A stretch of 64,000 nt of DNA from Lentzea sp. NEAU-D7 (GTDB lineage: Bacteria > Actinomycetota > Actinomycetes > Mycobacteriales > Pseudonocardiaceae), in the NCBI RefSeq assembly GCF_026242055.1, contig NZ_JAPJDL010000011.1:186001-250000 (forward strand). The letters run 5' to 3'. A program made the translations under genes and the position numbers. Shown one piece after another: positions 45,734-52,574 of the stretch; position 1 is the first letter of the stretch; each line of letters starts with the position of its first letter. The notes beneath the pieces were generated by a model. The model made no database searches. It saw nothing but the letters and a program-made list of their open reading frames with translations, and had not been told where the DNA came from.

Positions 45734-45774
45734 GCCGCTGGCCCGCGGGGTCGACGAGGGGTCCCCGCGGCTCA
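45731..45774. terminator. Bidirectional terminator between convergent genes
   Basis: TGAGCCGC (45731-45738) pairs with GCGGCTCA (45767-45774), and inside it CCGCGGGG (45743-45750) can pair with CCCCGCGG (45763-45770). The outer arms contain the stop codons of the lipoprotein and of the response regulator. Confidence 0.7.
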
Positions 45775-46431
45775 GCGACCGCTCTGCACCAGCCCGTTGA
45801 TGTGCGCGTACGCCACGGCGTGCACCCGGTCGCGCAACCCGAGCTTCGCCAGCACCCGTGAGACGTGCGTCTTCACGGTCTCGTCCCCGACGTGCAGCCG
45901 CGCGGCGATCTCGGCGTTGCTGCAGGCCGCCGCGACGAGCTGCAGCACCTCCCGTTCGCGCGCGGTGAGCAGCTCGAGCTCCGGCGGCGTCGGGGGAGGG
46001 GCGAGGCTGACGGCGAACCGCGCGATCAGCCGTTGCGTCACCGACGGGTCGATCAACGCGTCCCCGCGCGCCGCCACCCGCACCGCCGAGATCAGCTCCT
46101 CGGGCGGCAGCGACTTCAGCAGGAACCCGCTGGCCCCCGCCTTGAGCGCGCGGTAGACGTACTCGTCGGTGTCGTAGGTCGTCAGCAGCAGCACCTTCGT
46201 GCGGTTCGCCGGGTCGGCCAGGATCATCTCCGTCGCGCCGAGCCCGTCCAGCTTGGGCATCCGGATGTCGAGCACGGCCACGTCCGGGCGCAGCCGCGCG
46301 ACCTCCGCCACCGCGGCCCTGCCGTCCGCGACCTCCGCGACGCACCGGAGGTCGTCCTGCGTGTCGAAGATCGCGCGCATCCCGGAGCGCAGCATCGCGT
46401 GGTCGTCGGCCAGCAGCACCGTCAACGTCAT
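45772..46431 (-). CDS. LuxR/NarL family response regulator
   Basis: 219 residues. Receiver with LLADDHAMLRSG, phosphoacceptor Asp in VAVLDIRMPKLDG, and LuxR HTH LLTAREREVLQLVAAACSNAEIAARL (read as LTAREREVLQLVA plus CSNAEIAARL). Coupled to the kinase by an ATGA overlap. Probably regulates the divergent membrane/copper-like cluster at 47.7 kb. Confidence 0.95.
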   Translation of the reverse strand: MTLTVLLADDHAMLRSGMRAIFDTQDDLRCVAEVADGRAAVAEVARLRPDVAVLDIRMPKLDGLGATEMILADPANRTKVLLLTTYDTDEYVYRALKAGASGFLLKSLPPEELISAVRVAARGDALIDPSVTQRLIARFAVSLAPPPTPPELELLTAREREVLQLVAAACSNAEIAARLHVGDETVKTHVSRVLAKLGLRDRVHAVAYAHINGLVQSGR

Positions 46432-47561
46432 GACGCCTCCAGGGGGAACGTGACAGTCGTGCGCCAGGTGCGGCCGTCCTCGTCGAGCCCGGACCTGGTC
46501 CTGCCGTCGAACATGCCCGCGCGGTTGCGGATGCCGACGAGGCCGCGGCGCACCGAGCCGGAGTCGTCACCGGAACCCGCCTTGTTCCGCGACGCGATGG
46601 TGAGCGAGTCCGTCGCGTACTCCAGCGTCACCGTCACGCCGGACGCGTCGCCGTGCCGCAGGGCGTTGGTGAGCATCTCCTGGATGATCCGGTAGACCGT
46701 GATGTCCAACGACTCCGGCACGTCCCTCCGCTGCCCGCGCACCTCCAGCCGGGCCGGCAGGCCCGCCGCGCGCACGCCGTCGAGCAGCTCGTCGAGGTTG
46801 TCGAGCCCGGGCTGCCGCGCGCCCTCGGACTTGTCGCCGTGCAACAGGTCGAGTAGGTGCCGGAGGTCGACCATGGCCGCGCGGCTGGACGTCTCGACCG
46901 CGCGCAACGAGTTCGTGAGCTTCGGATTGCCCTCCGGCAGACCGAGGCGGGCGGCGCCGGCGTGCAGGTTGATCGCGCTCACGTGGTGGATGATCACGTC
47001 GTGCAGGTCGCGGGCGATCGCACCGCGTTCCTCGGTGATCGCCTTGGTGACCGCCGCCTTCGCGTCCTTCTCCGCCATCGCCGACCGCTTCTCCAGCTCG
47101 GCCAGGTACGCGCGGCGCGCCGTCGTGTAGCGGCCGACGAGCCACGGCAGCAGCGCGCCCTTGGCCGCCACCAGCACCGCGTACAGCGGGCCGTAGCCGT
47201 TGACGACCATGCACGCCATCAGGCTGGCCGACAGCAGCCCGAGCGAGGTGTACGCCGGTGTGCCGCGCAGCCACGCCCCCGCCCGGTACCCGGCGATCAG
47301 CAGACCCGCGTCGTTGGCGTCGATCCCGTTGCGCATCCCGACGAGGACGATCACCGGCACGGCCGCCTGCGCCGCCGCCACCCACAGAGACAGCCGGGCC
47401 GGACCGGCCAGCATCGCGTCGACGGCCAGCGTCATCAGCAGCACGACCGCGGTCTGCGGCAACGGTTCGCGGTCGAGCAGCACGAACCCGCCGTCCACGA
47501 CCATGCACACGGTCGCGACCAGCCACGACTGGTGCTTGAGGGGCAGCTTGATCAGATCCAT
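46428..47561 (-). CDS. Sensor histidine kinase (HisKA_3 type)
   Basis: 377 residues. About five membrane helices with no large external domain, coiled linker, HisKA_3 box ARDLHDVIIHHVSAINLHAG and HATPase_c (IQEMLTNALRHGD, RRGLVGIRNRAGMF). The start is set at ATG 47561, where the hydrophobic domain begins; upstream sequence in the same frame belongs to the divergent gene's opposite strand. Confidence 0.93.
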   Translation of the reverse strand: MDLIKLPLKHQSWLVATVCMVVDGGFVLLDREPLPQTAVVLLMTLAVDAMLAGPARLSLWVAAAQAAVPVIVLVGMRNGIDANDAGLLIAGYRAGAWLRGTPAYTSLGLLSASLMACMVVNGYGPLYAVLVAAKGALLPWLVGRYTTARRAYLAELEKRSAMAEKDAKAAVTKAITEERGAIARDLHDVIIHHVSAINLHAGAARLGLPEGNPKLTNSLRAVETSSRAAMVDLRHLLDLLHGDKSEGARQPGLDNLDELLDGVRAAGLPARLEVRGQRRDVPESLDITVYRIIQEMLTNALRHGDASGVTVTLEYATDSLTIASRNKAGSGDDSGSVRRGLVGIRNRAGMFDGRTRSGLDEDGRTWRTTVTFPLEAS

Positions 47562-47696: not shown

Positions 47697-49028
47697 ATGA
47701 AACGACTTGTCGTGACCTTCCTGCTCGCGCTGGCGGCGCTCCTGGGGATCGCCGCCCCCGCCCTCGCCGACGGCGCACAGTCCGGCGCCGACATCCACGT
47801 CGCGCAGAGCCTCGGCGACCGCGACCTCACGGTGATCATCCGCCGGGTCGCGGAGGTGCCGGGGCCGGTGCACGTCGACGTGGTGACGCACGCCGGCACG
47901 CCGCCGGGCGAGCTGACGCTGACGTTGCGCGCGGCCGGCGCGCCCAGCAGCACCGCCAAGGTCGTCCTCGGTGCCACGCCCGGATTCCACTCCGGGCTGC
48001 TGCACGTGGACCGGCCCGGTCCGTGGGAGCTCGCGGTCGACGAGGCCACCATCCCGTTCGTCGTGCCGGCGCTCGTGCCGTCGCCGTGGGAGAACGCGAC
48101 CTACGGAGGTTTCATCGCGGCCGGGGTGCTGTTGCTGGCGGCACTCCTGCTGGCGGTGTTCGGCAGGATCGGCCTCGCTGTGGTGCCCACCGCGGGCGTG
48201 GTCGCCGCGGTGGCGGTCGGCGTGACGGCGGCGTTGCTGGCGCCGAGCATCCCGCCGGTCGCGGCGCCCGGTACGCACCTCGATCCGACGTACGACAACG
48301 TCATGAACCCGTACGAGCGCACGTCCATTGTGGACTTCTCGCGTCCGCCGGTGAACATGGTGCCCCGCATGGACGACGAGGACCTCGTGCTGAACCTGAC
48401 CGACGGCTCGTCGGGACGGCCGGTGGACGACCTGCTGGTGCACGACAGCGCGTTCATCCACCTCGTCGTGGTGTCGCCGTCCGGGCACCTGCGCCACCTG
48501 CATCCGGTCCGCACGGCGCCGGGCGAGTTCCGCGCGAGGCTGACCGACCCCGAACAGGGCGAGCACGCGGTCGCCGCCGAGATCGCCCGGCGCGGCGGGG
48601 GAGTGCAGCTCCTGCGGTCGAGCGTCGAGGTCTCCGGCACGGCCGCTCCCCGCCACGACGCGCAGGCCGAGACGGCGATGGAGATCCGCGAGGCGGGCAG
48701 GCCGAGCACGATCACCGCCAAGTTCGGCGAGCGCGACCTGCAGCCGTGGCTGGGCATGCTCGGGCACATGATCGTCGTCGGCCCGGTCACCGGCACCGCC
48801 GCGGACGCCCCGATCTGGGCGCACGTGCACTCCATGCTCCCGCAGACCCCCGGCCTGCCCGACAGGCCCGACGAGAGCGTGGCCGCCTACGGGCCGGACG
48901 TGCCGTTCACCTACTCGTTCCCGTTGCCGGGCAGGTATCTCGTGTGGATCCAGGTCGAACGGGACTACTCGGTCGTCACCGTGCCGAAGGTCGTCGACGT
49001 CCCGGCGGGGAAGGTGGCCTCGAAGTGA
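47697..49028 (+). CDS. Exported two-domain protein with His-rich motifs (first gene of copper-like cluster)
   Basis: 443 residues: signal peptide (about 1-24, ALADG), beta-rich external domain (about 25-135), two membrane helices (about 140-190), and a second external beta domain (about 210-435). The second domain is rich in potential metal ligands: LLVHDSAFIHL, SGHLRHLHP, GMLGHMIVVG and WAHVHSM. PmoB of copper membrane monooxygenases has the same cupredoxin-2TM-cupredoxin layout, but the mature N-terminus here is not His, so the PmoB copper brace is absent. A copper-handling role is an inference. Confidence 0.75.
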   Translation: MKRLVVTFLLALAALLGIAAPALADGAQSGADIHVAQSLGDRDLTVIIRRVAEVPGPVHVDVVTHAGTPPGELTLTLRAAGAPSSTAKVVLGATPGFHSGLLHVDRPGPWELAVDEATIPFVVPALVPSPWENATYGGFIAAGVLLLAALLLAVFGRIGLAVVPTAGVVAAVAVGVTAALLAPSIPPVAAPGTHLDPTYDNVMNPYERTSIVDFSRPPVNMVPRMDDEDLVLNLTDGSSGRPVDDLLVHDSAFIHLVVVSPSGHLRHLHPVRTAPGEFRARLTDPEQGEHAVAAEIARRGGGVQLLRSSVEVSGTAAPRHDAQAETAMEIREAGRPSTITAKFGERDLQPWLGMLGHMIVVGPVTGTAADAPIWAHVHSMLPQTPGLPDRPDESVAAYGPDVPFTYSFPLPGRYLVWIQVERDYSVVTVPKVVDVPAGKVASK

Positions 49029-49411
49029 AGCGTTCGACGACAGCCGTCGTGGCCGGGGTGATCGCGGTGGTGGCCGCCTTGCTGGTGCTGTGGCCGCGCG
49101 GGGTCGAGGCCCGGCCGCACCTCGCGGAGAGCGCACAGCTCCGGTTCGAGCTCACGCCCGCCAGCACGCGGTCCGGCAGCAACTCGTTCGACCTGCGGAT
49201 CACCGACCGGTCCGGCAACGCCGCCGACGGCGACGTGACGGTCGAACCGGCGATGCCGCAGATGGGCCACGCGCTCGCGCCGATCACGGCGGCACCCCGG
49301 GCCCCTGGCCGGTACGAGGTCGCGGGCGTCGACCTGTTCATGGCGGGCCAATGGGAAATCACGTTGTCACTGCGCGGCGAGCGGGTCGTCATCCCGCTCC
49401 TGCTCACCTAG
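49025..49411 (+). CDS. YtkA/FixH-like exported protein
   Basis: 128 residues: one N-terminal membrane helix (about 6-24) and a compact beta domain with the YtkA-like signature MPQMGHA, then GRYEVAGVDLFMAGQWEITL. Met and His residues in that signature resemble Cu(I) ligands. GTG start overlapping the previous stop (GTGA), so it is coupled. Confidence 0.82.
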   Translation: MKRSTTAVVAGVIAVVAALLVLWPRGVEARPHLAESAQLRFELTPASTRSGSNSFDLRITDRSGNAADGDVTVEPAMPQMGHALAPITAAPRAPGRYEVAGVDLFMAGQWEITLSLRGERVVIPLLLT

Positions 49412-49422
49412 AAGGGGGAGGA

Positions 49423-50523
49423 ATGACTGTGCACATCACGGCGACGGCAGCGTCGTCGGCGAGGACGGTCCCGAGGGGGCTGGTCCCGGCGAGCGCCGTC
49501 GTCGGCGGCACCCTGATCTCGTTGATCGGCCTGACCTGGGACATCCAGTGGCACTCCGACGTCGGCCCGGACACGTTCTTCACCCTGCCGCACCTGTTCC
49601 TGTACGCGGGCAGCGCGATCTCGGGCCTGGCGAGCCTCGCCGTCGTGCTGCTGACGACGGCGGACTCCAAGCGCGGCAAGGTCGTCGACCCGATGGTCGG
49701 CGGGCGCGCGGTCGGCGTGTTCGGCCGCACGTTCGCCGCCCCGGTCGGGTACCTGATCTCCGGCATCGGCGCGGCGCTGTTCCTGGTCTACGGACTGTGG
49801 GACCAGTGGTGGCACGGCCTGTACGGCTTCGACGCCGTGATCGACTCGCCGCCGCACATCGGGCTGCTGCTGTCGATCTCGATCACGATGGTCGGCGCGG
49901 TCATGATCTTCGCGGTCGCACGCGACCAGCGCTGGGGAACGTACGGCGTCGCCGCCGCGGCGGGCACCCTGCTCGCGTTCAGCATGGTGACCGTGCTCGG
50001 CCTGCGCGCGTTGCCCGGCGGTGCCGTCAACACGGTCAACGCGGGTAGTGCGTTCTTCTCGGTGATGATCCTGTTCATGGGCGCGTACGTCCTGAAGCGA
50101 CGCGGTGGCGCGCTGGCCGTCGGGATCGTCGTGGCGCTGCTGCAGGCCGTGTTCTGGTGGTTCTCGCCGTGGGCCACCGACGTCTACGCGGACGCCACCG
50201 GCCTGCCGTTGCGCGACTACGCGGACGGGATCCCCGGACTGCCCAACATGATCCCGATGAGCCTGATCCTCGTCGCGGTCGCGGTGGAGCTGCTGCACAA
50301 GGTGCCCGCCTGGCTCACCGGCGCGATCGGCGGCGTGATCATCACCGCCTGCGCGCCGCTGCAGCGGATGCTCGTGCAGGGCAGCAACTTCCCCGCTCTC
50401 GAACGGTACGTGGCCACCGTCGTGGCGGGCGCGGTGCTCGGCGCCCTCGCCGGCGTGCTCGGCCGGCGGTTCGGCCACATGCTCCGCCACCTCGCACCCG
50501 CAAAGGAGGACAGCCATGCGTAA
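49423..50523 (+). CDS. 10-TM membrane protein with paired Asp-His metal-site motifs
   Basis: 366 residues and about ten membrane helices. The first four form two copies of a two-helix unit: W39-D40-IQW-H44 at the end of helix 1 with LP-H57 at the start of helix 2, and W126-D127-QWW-H131 with PP-H145 at helices 3 and 4. D40-x3-H44-x12-H57 has the spacing of the PmoC copper ligands D156, H160 and H173 of methane monooxygenase, and the intervening DTxFT is also PmoC-like. No named family is recognised. Strong GGGGGAGGA site before the ATG; overlaps the next gene by 8 nt. Confidence 0.75.
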   Translation: MTVHITATAASSARTVPRGLVPASAVVGGTLISLIGLTWDIQWHSDVGPDTFFTLPHLFLYAGSAISGLASLAVVLLTTADSKRGKVVDPMVGGRAVGVFGRTFAAPVGYLISGIGAALFLVYGLWDQWWHGLYGFDAVIDSPPHIGLLLSISITMVGAVMIFAVARDQRWGTYGVAAAAGTLLAFSMVTVLGLRALPGGAVNTVNAGSAFFSVMILFMGAYVLKRRGGALAVGIVVALLQAVFWWFSPWATDVYADATGLPLRDYADGIPGLPNMIPMSLILVAVAVELLHKVPAWLTGAIGGVIITACAPLQRMLVQGSNFPALERYVATVVAGAVLGALAGVLGRRFGHMLRHLAPAKEDSHA

Positions 50524-51034
50524 GACGTTGCTGGGACTCGCGGGCACGGTCGCGCTGCTGTTCGGACTGGCCGCCCCCGCGCTGGCCTTCGAACCGGTGA
50601 ACGTCGTGCACACCGAGAAGGTGCAGGCGGGACCGTACGACCTGACCATCGGCTTCAGCACGTGGCCGGTGAAAGCCATGCAGTCGCTGGACTTCACCTT
50701 CGCGCCCGAGAACGGGATCGAGGGCAAGAAGGGCACGCTGACGCTGTTCCGCGAGGGCGTGGAGGACGACGGCGGCCCGCTCGCCCGGCACCCCCGCAAG
50801 CGCGAGGTGTGGGGCCTGGACATCTTCGCCCTGCCCGAACCCGGGACGTGGACCATGCGCTTCGAGGTCGACGGTCCGGCGGGCGCGGGCACGGGTGAGC
50901 TGAAGAACCTCCAGGTGATGGAGCAGCCGGGGCCGCCCATGGGGCTGTCCTGGGCGATCAGCACGATCCCGCTGTTCGGGCTGATCGCGTTGATCGTGGT
51001 CGCCTGGCGCAGGACGCGCGCCGCGGTCGACTAG
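50516..51034 (+). CDS. Exported single-TM-anchored beta-domain protein
   Basis: 172 residues: signal peptide (about 1-24, ALAFEP), external beta domain (about 25-140) and one C-terminal membrane helix (about 147-165) followed by RRTR. This topology matches PmoD-type and CopC-like periplasmic copper proteins. Met and His are modest in number (HTEKV, MEQPGPPMG). Last gene of the cluster. Confidence 0.75.
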   Translation: MRKTLLGLAGTVALLFGLAAPALAFEPVNVVHTEKVQAGPYDLTIGFSTWPVKAMQSLDFTFAPENGIEGKKGTLTLFREGVEDDGGPLARHPRKREVWGLDIFALPEPGTWTMRFEVDGPAGAGTGELKNLQVMEQPGPPMGLSWAISTIPLFGLIALIVVAWRRTRAAVD

Positions 51035-51230: not shown

Positions 51231-52196
51231 GTGCGCTTGCCTCACGCGGTTTGGATCGGCGGGCTCCTGGTGCCCGCGCTGCTCGCCACCACCGGCGTGT
51301 TCGTCCACGGCGGTGGCGTCGAACGGACGCTGCACTCCGACGTGCGCACAGCGCTGGGAAAGGCCGGCTACCACGGCGTGGTCGCGGTGGACGGCCGATC
51401 GGTCGTGGTCAGCGAGGTCTCGCCGCGCTCGGTCGACGCGGTGCGCGCCGTGGTGTCCGACGTGGACGGTGTCGGCGGCACCGAGGTGCGCGCGGCCGAG
51501 CCCGAGCAGCTGCTCGTGGCGGTGCGCGGCGGTGAGATCCTGGTGTCCGGCGCCGTCGCCGACGACGCGGAACGCCGCGCGCTGATGGAAGCCGTGCGGT
51601 CCGAGGACCACCGCGTCACCGCCGCGCTCCGGCTCGGCGGCCTGCTGCCGATCCCTCCCGCCGTGATCGGGCGGGTGCTCTCCGCCGCGCTGTCCGCGAA
51701 GGTGTCGGACGTGACCACGACCATCCACAACGGACAGGTCGTGGTCGCCGCCAGGGTGCCCGACGAGGCCAGGGCGACCGCGGTCCGCGACGCCGTCCGG
51801 GAGGCGGCGAACGGCCTGCAGGTCACCGACCGCATCGAGGTCGGCTCGTCCGCGACGGCCGGCGACCTGAACGTCGCGGCCCTGCACGACTCGATCTCCC
51901 GCCTGGTCAACGGCAACGGCGCGATCCGGTTCGTGCAGGGCACCACCGCCTACGAAGGCCACGGCCCCGTGCTCGTCGAACGCGTCGGCCGCATGCTGCT
52001 GGTCGCCCCGCGCGCCTCGATCACGCTGGTGGCGCACGGCACGGACCAGGCGATGGCGGCGAAACGCGGCGAGCTGGTCCGCGACGTCCTCGTCGGCCAG
52101 GGCGTGGCGCCCGCGTTGATCGCCATCGAGACCCGTCCCGCCCCCGGCGGCGAGTACGACCCGGCCACACGCCAGGTCGACGTCGTAGTCCGTTAG
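51231..52196 (+). CDS. ArfA-like BON/OmpA domain envelope protein
   Basis: 321 residues. N-terminal signal anchor (about 1-28, AVWIGGLLVPALLATTGVF), two BON-like repeats (about 35-200) and an OmpA-like peptidoglycan-binding domain at the end (IRFVQGTTAYEG to LVAHGTDQAMAAKRGELVRDVLVGQGV region). The same order is found in mycobacterial ArfA (OmpATb), linked to ammonia release and acid adaptation. GTG start. The small gene that follows fits an arf-like pair. Confidence 0.8.
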   Translation: MRLPHAVWIGGLLVPALLATTGVFVHGGGVERTLHSDVRTALGKAGYHGVVAVDGRSVVVSEVSPRSVDAVRAVVSDVDGVGGTEVRAAEPEQLLVAVRGGEILVSGAVADDAERRALMEAVRSEDHRVTAALRLGGLLPIPPAVIGRVLSAALSAKVSDVTTTIHNGQVVVAARVPDEARATAVRDAVREAANGLQVTDRIEVGSSATAGDLNVAALHDSISRLVNGNGAIRFVQGTTAYEGHGPVLVERVGRMLLVAPRASITLVAHGTDQAMAAKRGELVRDVLVGQGVAPALIAIETRPAPGGEYDPATRQVDVVVR

Positions 52197-52205
52197 GAGT
52201 TCGCT

Positions 52206-52574
52206 GTGCTCTGGTTGTTCTCGCAGATGTTCCTGCTGTGCCTGGTGTCTTTCGCCGTCGGCTCGCTGGTGACGTGGCTGTCGGTCCGCGGTCGCCTGCA
52301 GCCCGAACGCCCGAAGACGCGCCTCGCGCTGCCCGCACCCCGCCCGGCGGCCGAGCAGGTGGTGATCGCCGAACAGGCCCTGGCACCGGCCGGCCCGAAG
52401 CCGGCCAGGCAGGAACCGCTGCCGGTCAAGGGCAACTCGAAGACGATGGTCTACCACACGCCCGACTCGCCGTACTACCGGCGGATGAAGGGCGACATGG
52501 CGTTCGCGTCGGAAGCCGACGCCGTGTCGGCCGGTTACCGGATGTGGACCACCAAGGGCCGCGTCAGGGCCTGA
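52206..52574 (+). CDS. Membrane-anchored sunset-domain protein
   Basis: 122 residues: N-terminal membrane helix (about 4-24), Pro/Ala-rich linker (about 30-70) and a C-terminal small domain VKGNSKTMVYHTPDSPYYRRM... AFASEADAVSAGYR, typical of actinobacterial sunset-domain proteins. GTG start with TAGGAG upstream, 9 bp after the ArfA-like gene, so probably co-transcribed with it. Confidence 0.8.
   Translation: MLWLFSQMFLLCLVSFAVGSLVTWLSVRGRLQPERPKTRLALPAPRPAAEQVVIAEQALAPAGPKPARQEPLPVKGNSKTMVYHTPDSPYYRRMKGDMAFASEADAVSAGYRMWTTKGRVRA

Follow-up and report, generated by a model that had tools for sequence, protein, structure and literature searches.

A PmoC-related membrane protein and its conserved partners in Lentzea: a candidate copper-handling complex of the cell envelope

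What does a protein with the copper-ligand spacing of a methane monooxygenase subunit do in an actinomycete? The question is raised by four co-directional genes, here called A, B, C, and D, that span positions 47697-51034 of a stretch of 64,000 nucleotides from Lentzea sp. NEAU-D7 (contig NZ_JAPJDL010000011.1, positions 186,001 to 250,000; the whole of this stretch is referred to as the window). The genes lie where an earlier reading of the DNA (the original prediction) had placed them (Table 1), and it is the membrane protein C that bears the spacing, known from PmoC of particulate methane monooxygenase. Over curated cut-offs, Pfam and NCBIfam assign B alone among the four, as YtkA-like, and scans with the single proteins returned nothing useful for A, C, or D. 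From several kinds of sequence comparison, it is concluded that C is a distant homologue of PmoC, probably by common descent. The C family is real, conserved, and PmoC-related, with partners of its own, and it is undescribed as far as the literature searched shows (open-licence papers only), in which no report of it was found. The best explanation, to which we give a probability of roughly one half, is that C together with A, B, and D makes up a complex that handles copper in the cell envelope.

In translation, C reads D40-x3-H44-x12-H57, with D50-T-F-F-T in between, and then D127-x3-H131-x13-H145, confirming the first triad and the DTFFT stretch as originally described. PMC12576850 gives the copper ligands of PmoC as D156/H160/H173 for the CuC site and N227/H231/H245 for the CuD site. 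The motifs of C correspond to CuC and then CuD in order and spacing, and the 45-69 residues that separate them across 104 aligned members bracket the 53 of PmoC (from residue numbers). The second triad had been predicted to be an internal copy of the first; it is present, but fits the second PmoC site, CuD, rather than a duplicated CuC.

The alignment of 104 rows (98 clusters at 90% identity, with three pairs being the same gene twice) consists of C of the window, 19 sequences of the window type, 14 from a search of the phylum, and 70 of 78 usable loci from a scan of species genomes. Solely open reading frames (ORFs) with both triads were retained, which 78 of the 80 scan loci supplied; the other two (L158 and L207) were dropped, apparently trimmed by the chosen start codon. 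At an earlier step with 23 loci, no pair was obtained from L034 and L043, and the wrong ORF was picked at L041. The only invariant columns are D40, H44, H57, D127, W130, H131, G135, D137, P143, and H145. Loss of the triads among homologues, named beforehand as evidence against the prediction, was not seen in any of the 104 rows, an invariance that is overstated because the scan was seeded with motifs (70 of the rows) and the rows were filtered for both triads. A less biased set comes from 20 Gemmatimonadota loci drawn from 42 genomes found with a profile, all 20 of which have both triads; four are alignment rows, and the other 16 are new, sharing no more than 86% identity with any row. The spacing of motif 1 is x3/x12 in 83 of the 104 rows, C of the window included, with x13 in 18 and x14 in three, and that of motif 2 is x3/x13 throughout (104/104). 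W43 is replaced by Leu at L041 and in three plasmid members of the family.

The ten transmembrane (TM) helices predicted for C are borne out by a confident AlphaFold2 model (predicted local distance difference test, pLDDT, 92.2; predicted template modelling score, pTM, 0.91), in which one of the 10 helices is just 10 residues long. In this model D40/H44 and D127/H131 sit close to where helices 1 and 3, respectively, end, and H57 and H145 close to where helices 2 and 4 begin. No Lys or Arg occurs in the two loops that join the triad helices, and the loop between helices 2 and 3 has four such residues. By the positive-inside rule, both triads should face the same, outer side of the membrane.

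How far does the similarity to PmoC go beyond the ligands? A profile of the 104 rows, searched against the Protein Data Bank (PDB; 177,635 sequences), gave 14 matches at E<=10, 13 of which are AmoC or PmoC (five at E 0.0022-0.07 and eight at 2-8). With a narrower profile (A2), 6/7 matches were AmoC/PmoC (best E 0.0059), and the narrow profile A1 gave one irrelevant match and nothing else. When the members were scanned singly, AmoC was the model matched by most of them among 24,736 in Pfam (13/104 at E<=1, best 0.0016; next QcrA_N, with four), and AmoC_BACT the model matched by most among 18,950 in NCBIfam (12/104, best 0.00089), followed by TIGR03078, which also represents subunit C, with seven. 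A clear match to some other family would have pointed elsewhere; among the families listed (25 of 39 for Pfam, 25 for NCBIfam), none apart from AmoC models was matched by more than four of the 104. CopD/CtaG gave no Pfam match to C of the window at E<=10 and is absent from the 25 of 39 families listed for the 104 members. Aligned with hhalign, the C family and PmoC reach 87% probability (P 4e-6) with both triads in register. The score is 48.6, a value that none of 200 column permutations approached (maximum 26.3), and masking the six ligand columns still leaves 33.0 (P 0.00095). The single values are modest; it is the agreement of hmmsearch, Pfam, NCBIfam, and hhalign that suggests distant homology, in line with one of the options originally put forward.

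A number of results weigh against this relationship. Masking motif 1 leaves an hhalign score of 13.3 and masking motif 2 leaves 48.8, and by this measure the homology signal rests on motif 1. No PDB match of the C profile reaches E 0.001, and unrelated Pfam models score equally low or lower in single members (QcrA_N 0.00048, DUF1427 0.0011). A Foldseek search with the C model against the PDB gave nothing at E<=0.001, and PmoC is absent from the 50 matches listed of 483; against BFVD, it is likewise absent from the 50 listed of 228. Furthermore, C of the window is not matched by PF04896 (curated cut-off 26.7 bits), whereas all seven PmoC/AmoC control records exceeded the cut-off in the same search. 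The CuD Asn is Asp in 104/104 rows, so the metal or the chemistry may differ from that of PmoC. These points leave room for convergence, in which an unrelated membrane family acquired a similar metal site on helix hairpins with no common descent from PmoC: the listed fold matches lack PmoC, the E-values are modest, and the signal, driven by motif 1, is confined to about 100 columns. Such an origin seems rather unlikely, however, in view of two motifs in the same order and with the same spacings, together with the R, D, T, and P positions around them, the prominence of PmoC/AmoC among all the PDB sequences and family models searched, and the permutation control.

If C is a homologue of PmoC, the next question is whether it is also an oxygenase. 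Compared with PmoC/AmoC, it has the same D-x3-H-x12-H followed by [N/D]-x3-H-x13-H, and in many members RDT and TP around motif 1, but it is larger, with 10 predicted helices, has Asp for Asn227, lacks the Phe pocket, and has other partners. The CuC ligands are matched residue by residue (D40/H44/H57, 104/104). At CuD, the position, the spacing, and both His are kept in 104/104 rows and Asn has become Asp in all of them. According to PMC11194816, CuD is held to be the site of hydroxylation; an archaeal CuMMO (copper membrane monooxygenase) paper, PMC9038741, describes the D-sites as conserved solely within bacterial lineages. The main rival to copper handling is therefore an O2-activating copper enzyme of the PmoC superfamily, whose CuD-like site would oxidize a small substrate while A, B, and D load copper or pass electrons. 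The invariant ligand positions of both sites are consistent with this, as are the Arg found at the second-shell Arg165 position in 83/104 rows and the acidic residue, Asp in 104/104, at that of PmoC E237 (numbering from the alignment). Against it stand the Asp that replaces Asn227 throughout, the three Phe positions around CuD (177, 240, and 248, mapped by offset), where none of the 104 rows has Phe, and the Pro that the window type has at Arg165 (Pro in 21 of the 104 rows). PmoA/AmoA (PF02461) had no match at E<=1 in the genome of the window and was over cut-off in 0/6 genomes and 0/8 records, and PmoB/AmoB (PF04744) was likewise over cut-off in 0/6 genomes and 0/8 records, both searches being made without a known-positive genome as control. 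Together with a plasmid context that is partly one of metal resistance (see below), these results make an oxygenase possible but not probable. The operon is not filed as a CuMMO, because C falls below the AmoC cut-off, its CuD Asn is Asp, and no PmoA or PmoB was found in those control-free searches; the original prediction likewise saw no standard CuMMO here.

The partner proteins add indications of copper. B matches YtkA (PF13115) with E 2.6e-9 and 38.1 bits, over the cut-off of 25.9, and in the PDB it matches a copper resistance protein (9ll2, E 9.4e-8). In 21 rows (21 of 28 prepared sequences), M77, H82, and M106 are invariant. B had been described as a YtkA/FixH-like protein with MPQMGHA. 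The first domain of A matches the same chain, 9ll2, with E 0.0015 in a profile search, and 15 of 53 A members match YtkA at E<=1. Both proteins thus resemble YtkA-like copper proteins, with the difference that they occur here in an operon with a PmoC-like protein.

A had been likened to PmoB. The topology agrees, with a signal peptide, a beta domain, two TM helices, and one or more beta domains, and there are HxH pairs as well; homology is not supported, since profile and fold searches point to Ig- and YtkA-like domains. A consists of three immunoglobulin-like (Ig-like) domains according to a fold search, and its AlphaFold2 model has pLDDT 83 and pTM 0.77. A relationship by descent to PmoB was considered and rejected, as in the PDB profile search the first domain led to the copper resistance protein and no PmoB was matched. 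With Foldseek, A retrieved generic Ig/FnIII chains, with no PmoB among the 50 listed of 1619. Across 53 rows (A of the window and 52 of 59 prepared relatives, those from other phyla having been picked by two motifs, HxHP and one of N-terminal His type), the invariant columns of A include H255, H267-x-H269, M354-x2-H357, and H376-x-H378. None of its invariant His lies in the first domain, where the PmoB CuB site combines an N-terminal His with H-x-H. The absence of an N-terminal His was correctly noted for the window, where the mature protein is predicted to begin ADG; relatives do have one, with His as the predicted mature N-terminus in 27/30 listed A genes from other phyla and in three divergent copies from the same family, a further likeness to PmoB. 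One relative of A (L255:7069-8754) extends further at its C-terminus, and a separate B was not found next to it, so that it is possibly an A-B fusion.

PmoD has a signal peptide, a beta domain, and a C-terminal TM helix. D shares this topology, as predicted; homology to PmoD is not supported, the PDB matches of D being Ig-type chains. In 24 rows (24 of 30 prepared), H32 and H92 are invariant. In the plasmid relatives L350, L351, and L353, the helices of C are followed by a region starting AHDPGQG, which resembles a beta domain with a final TM helix. Longer relatives, in which a beta domain and a TM helix follow the C part, looked at first like C-D fusions; this was rejected, as hhalign of D against 23 such regions gave 0.3% probability.

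Taken together, these features can be accommodated in a model of copper handling. In it, two outward-facing helix hairpins of C would carry the CuC and CuD ligand positions, and C would form a cell-envelope complex with A (six conserved His and one Met, two sites of the H + HxH type), B (a Met/His site of YtkA type), and D. The periplasmic domains may bind copper and either deliver it to the two D/H/H sites of C or receive it from them. The most likely job would be to take up, store, or transfer copper, or to interconvert Cu(I) and Cu(II), and not to oxidize methane or ammonia. Control would perhaps be exerted by the neighbouring two-component system. Copper, the likely ligand in the original prediction too, is favoured by the YtkA-type partner, by copper or metal genes near relatives on plasmids (four of five records, one of them weakly), by the CuD Asp, and by the lack of a Phe pocket.

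Six plasmid records contain a relative of C, annotated as 'hypothetical protein' in five and unannotated in one, and five of the six were opened. Near the relative, the Streptomyces mirabilis plasmid has a P-type ATPase, a heavy-metal domain, and a cupredoxin, that of Streptomyces sp. F2 a multicopper oxidase and a cupredoxin, and that of Mycolicibacterium vanbaalenii CopC. A weaker case is the M. aubagnense plasmid, with a YHS protein and a CopY-family regulator; the Rubrobacter marinus plasmid has no copper or metal genes of this kind near the relative. In Aquihabitans, a CopA-like ATPase was read from the sequence ~5 kb from the C relative. Two observations count against a link to copper: for 65 neighbouring ORFs (of 109 prepared, with the Aquihabitans ATPase among them) from 15 actinobacterial and chloroflexal loci, none of the 25 families listed of 99 is a copper family, and the neighbours examined in the window are regulators and Arf-like genes. 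A general copper context of the operon was therefore not upheld by the 65-ORF set, and is seen on some plasmids. D/H/H sites are not specific to copper, and the triads might instead hold Zn, Fe, or Mn in a general metal transporter or sensor. This appears improbable given the Met/His motif of B and its match to a copper resistance protein, the copper genes near some plasmid relatives, and the register of the triads with PmoC.

Relatives of C occur in 44/150 genomes of the window's own family and in 22/396 genomes of its phylum (searched with a 21-row profile, its rows from 21/31 loci). From these matches 34 stretches were selected, and tblastn with each gene detected C in every one, D in 30, A in 29, and B in 28. 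The full set of four is present in 28/34 stretches, or 27/33 without L256, an identical second copy of the window, and the order A-B-C-D is kept in relatives down to ~37-39% identity in A and C. A scan of species genomes, seeded with two motif patterns and using a 24-row alignment, yielded 425 confirmed relatives of C, mainly metagenome-assembled, of which 80 were kept. By record title they belong to Actinomycetota, Chloroflexota, Rokubacteria, Deinococcota, Gemmatimonadota, Acidobacteriota, Verrucomicrobiota, Marinimicrobia, Bacteroidota, Proteobacteria, and others. A profile search found the family in 42/150 Gemmatimonadota genomes. An A-like gene adjoins C in 20/20 Gemmatimonadota loci (16 new to the alignment) and in 33/80 loci of the species-genome scan, counts made with an A profile built partly from those same loci. 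Some Rokubacteria have several paralogues of C (L214; G628, the genome of L172), with four matches in one genome. No plasmid relative was found with C of the window as sole query, and no relatives were found in viral contigs. Many contigs classed as viral (L076-L155, L270-L349) have pmoC/amoC-like genes, and among 12 non-redundant examples the complete ones retain the CuC and CuD motifs.

Table 1. Features of the gene cluster and its divergent regulators (positions in the window)
Feature	Position	Strand	Description
Response regulator, NarL type, divergent upstream	45772..46431	-	NarL-type response regulator
Sensor histidine kinase, divergent	46428..47561	-	MadS/UhpB/NarX-like, below the cut-offs of those models
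Gene A	47697..49028	+	443 amino acids; signal peptide, Ig-like beta domain, two TM helices, two tandem His-bearing Ig-like domains
Gene B	49025..49411	+	128 amino acids, GTG start; signal anchor and YtkA-like domain with MPQMGH
Gene C	49423..50523	+	366 amino acids; 10 predicted helices; PmoC-like, two D/H/H triads at helix ends
Motif 1 of C, D40...H57	49540..49593	+	register of PmoC CuC (D156/H160/H173), including DT-x-FT
Motif 2 of C, D127...H145	49801..49857	+	register of PmoC CuD (N227/H231/H245); Asn replaced by Asp
Gene D	50516..51034	+	172 amino acids; signal peptide, beta domain, C-terminal TM helix

In 24/34 stretches the operon has a response-regulator match nearby, 21 of the 24 at >=72% identity. 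Directly 3' of the cluster (51231-52574) are an ArfA/OmpATb-like gene and a sunset-domain (ArfC-like) gene; among the 34 stretches, both Arf-like genes occur solely in L236, L237, L238, and L242 and in the copy L256. Four stretches of the window (3 to 19 kb) were compared with contig C34 and agree 100% with part of it. A sampled 3-kb stretch ~52-55 kb upstream of the window is identical as well, and contig C3 looks like a redundant assembly copy.

The wider interest of these genes lies in PmoC itself, which holds the site where methane and ammonia oxidation are thought to occur. A large family of relatives with both triads, and with Asp where CuD has Asn, would provide an outgroup for the evolution of CuMMO, and would be a natural test of which features of PmoC make an oxygenase. 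A broader reading, more tentative still than that of an oxygenase at this locus, is that C is part of an ancient PmoC superfamily distributed across many aerobic phyla, inside or beside which the methane and ammonia monooxygenases arose by recruiting PmoA and PmoB and by changing the CuD Asp to Asn, and whose members may be working copper oxygenases. A role would also be suggested for genes of unknown function in 42/150 Gemmatimonadota genomes and in 44/150 genomes of the window's family.

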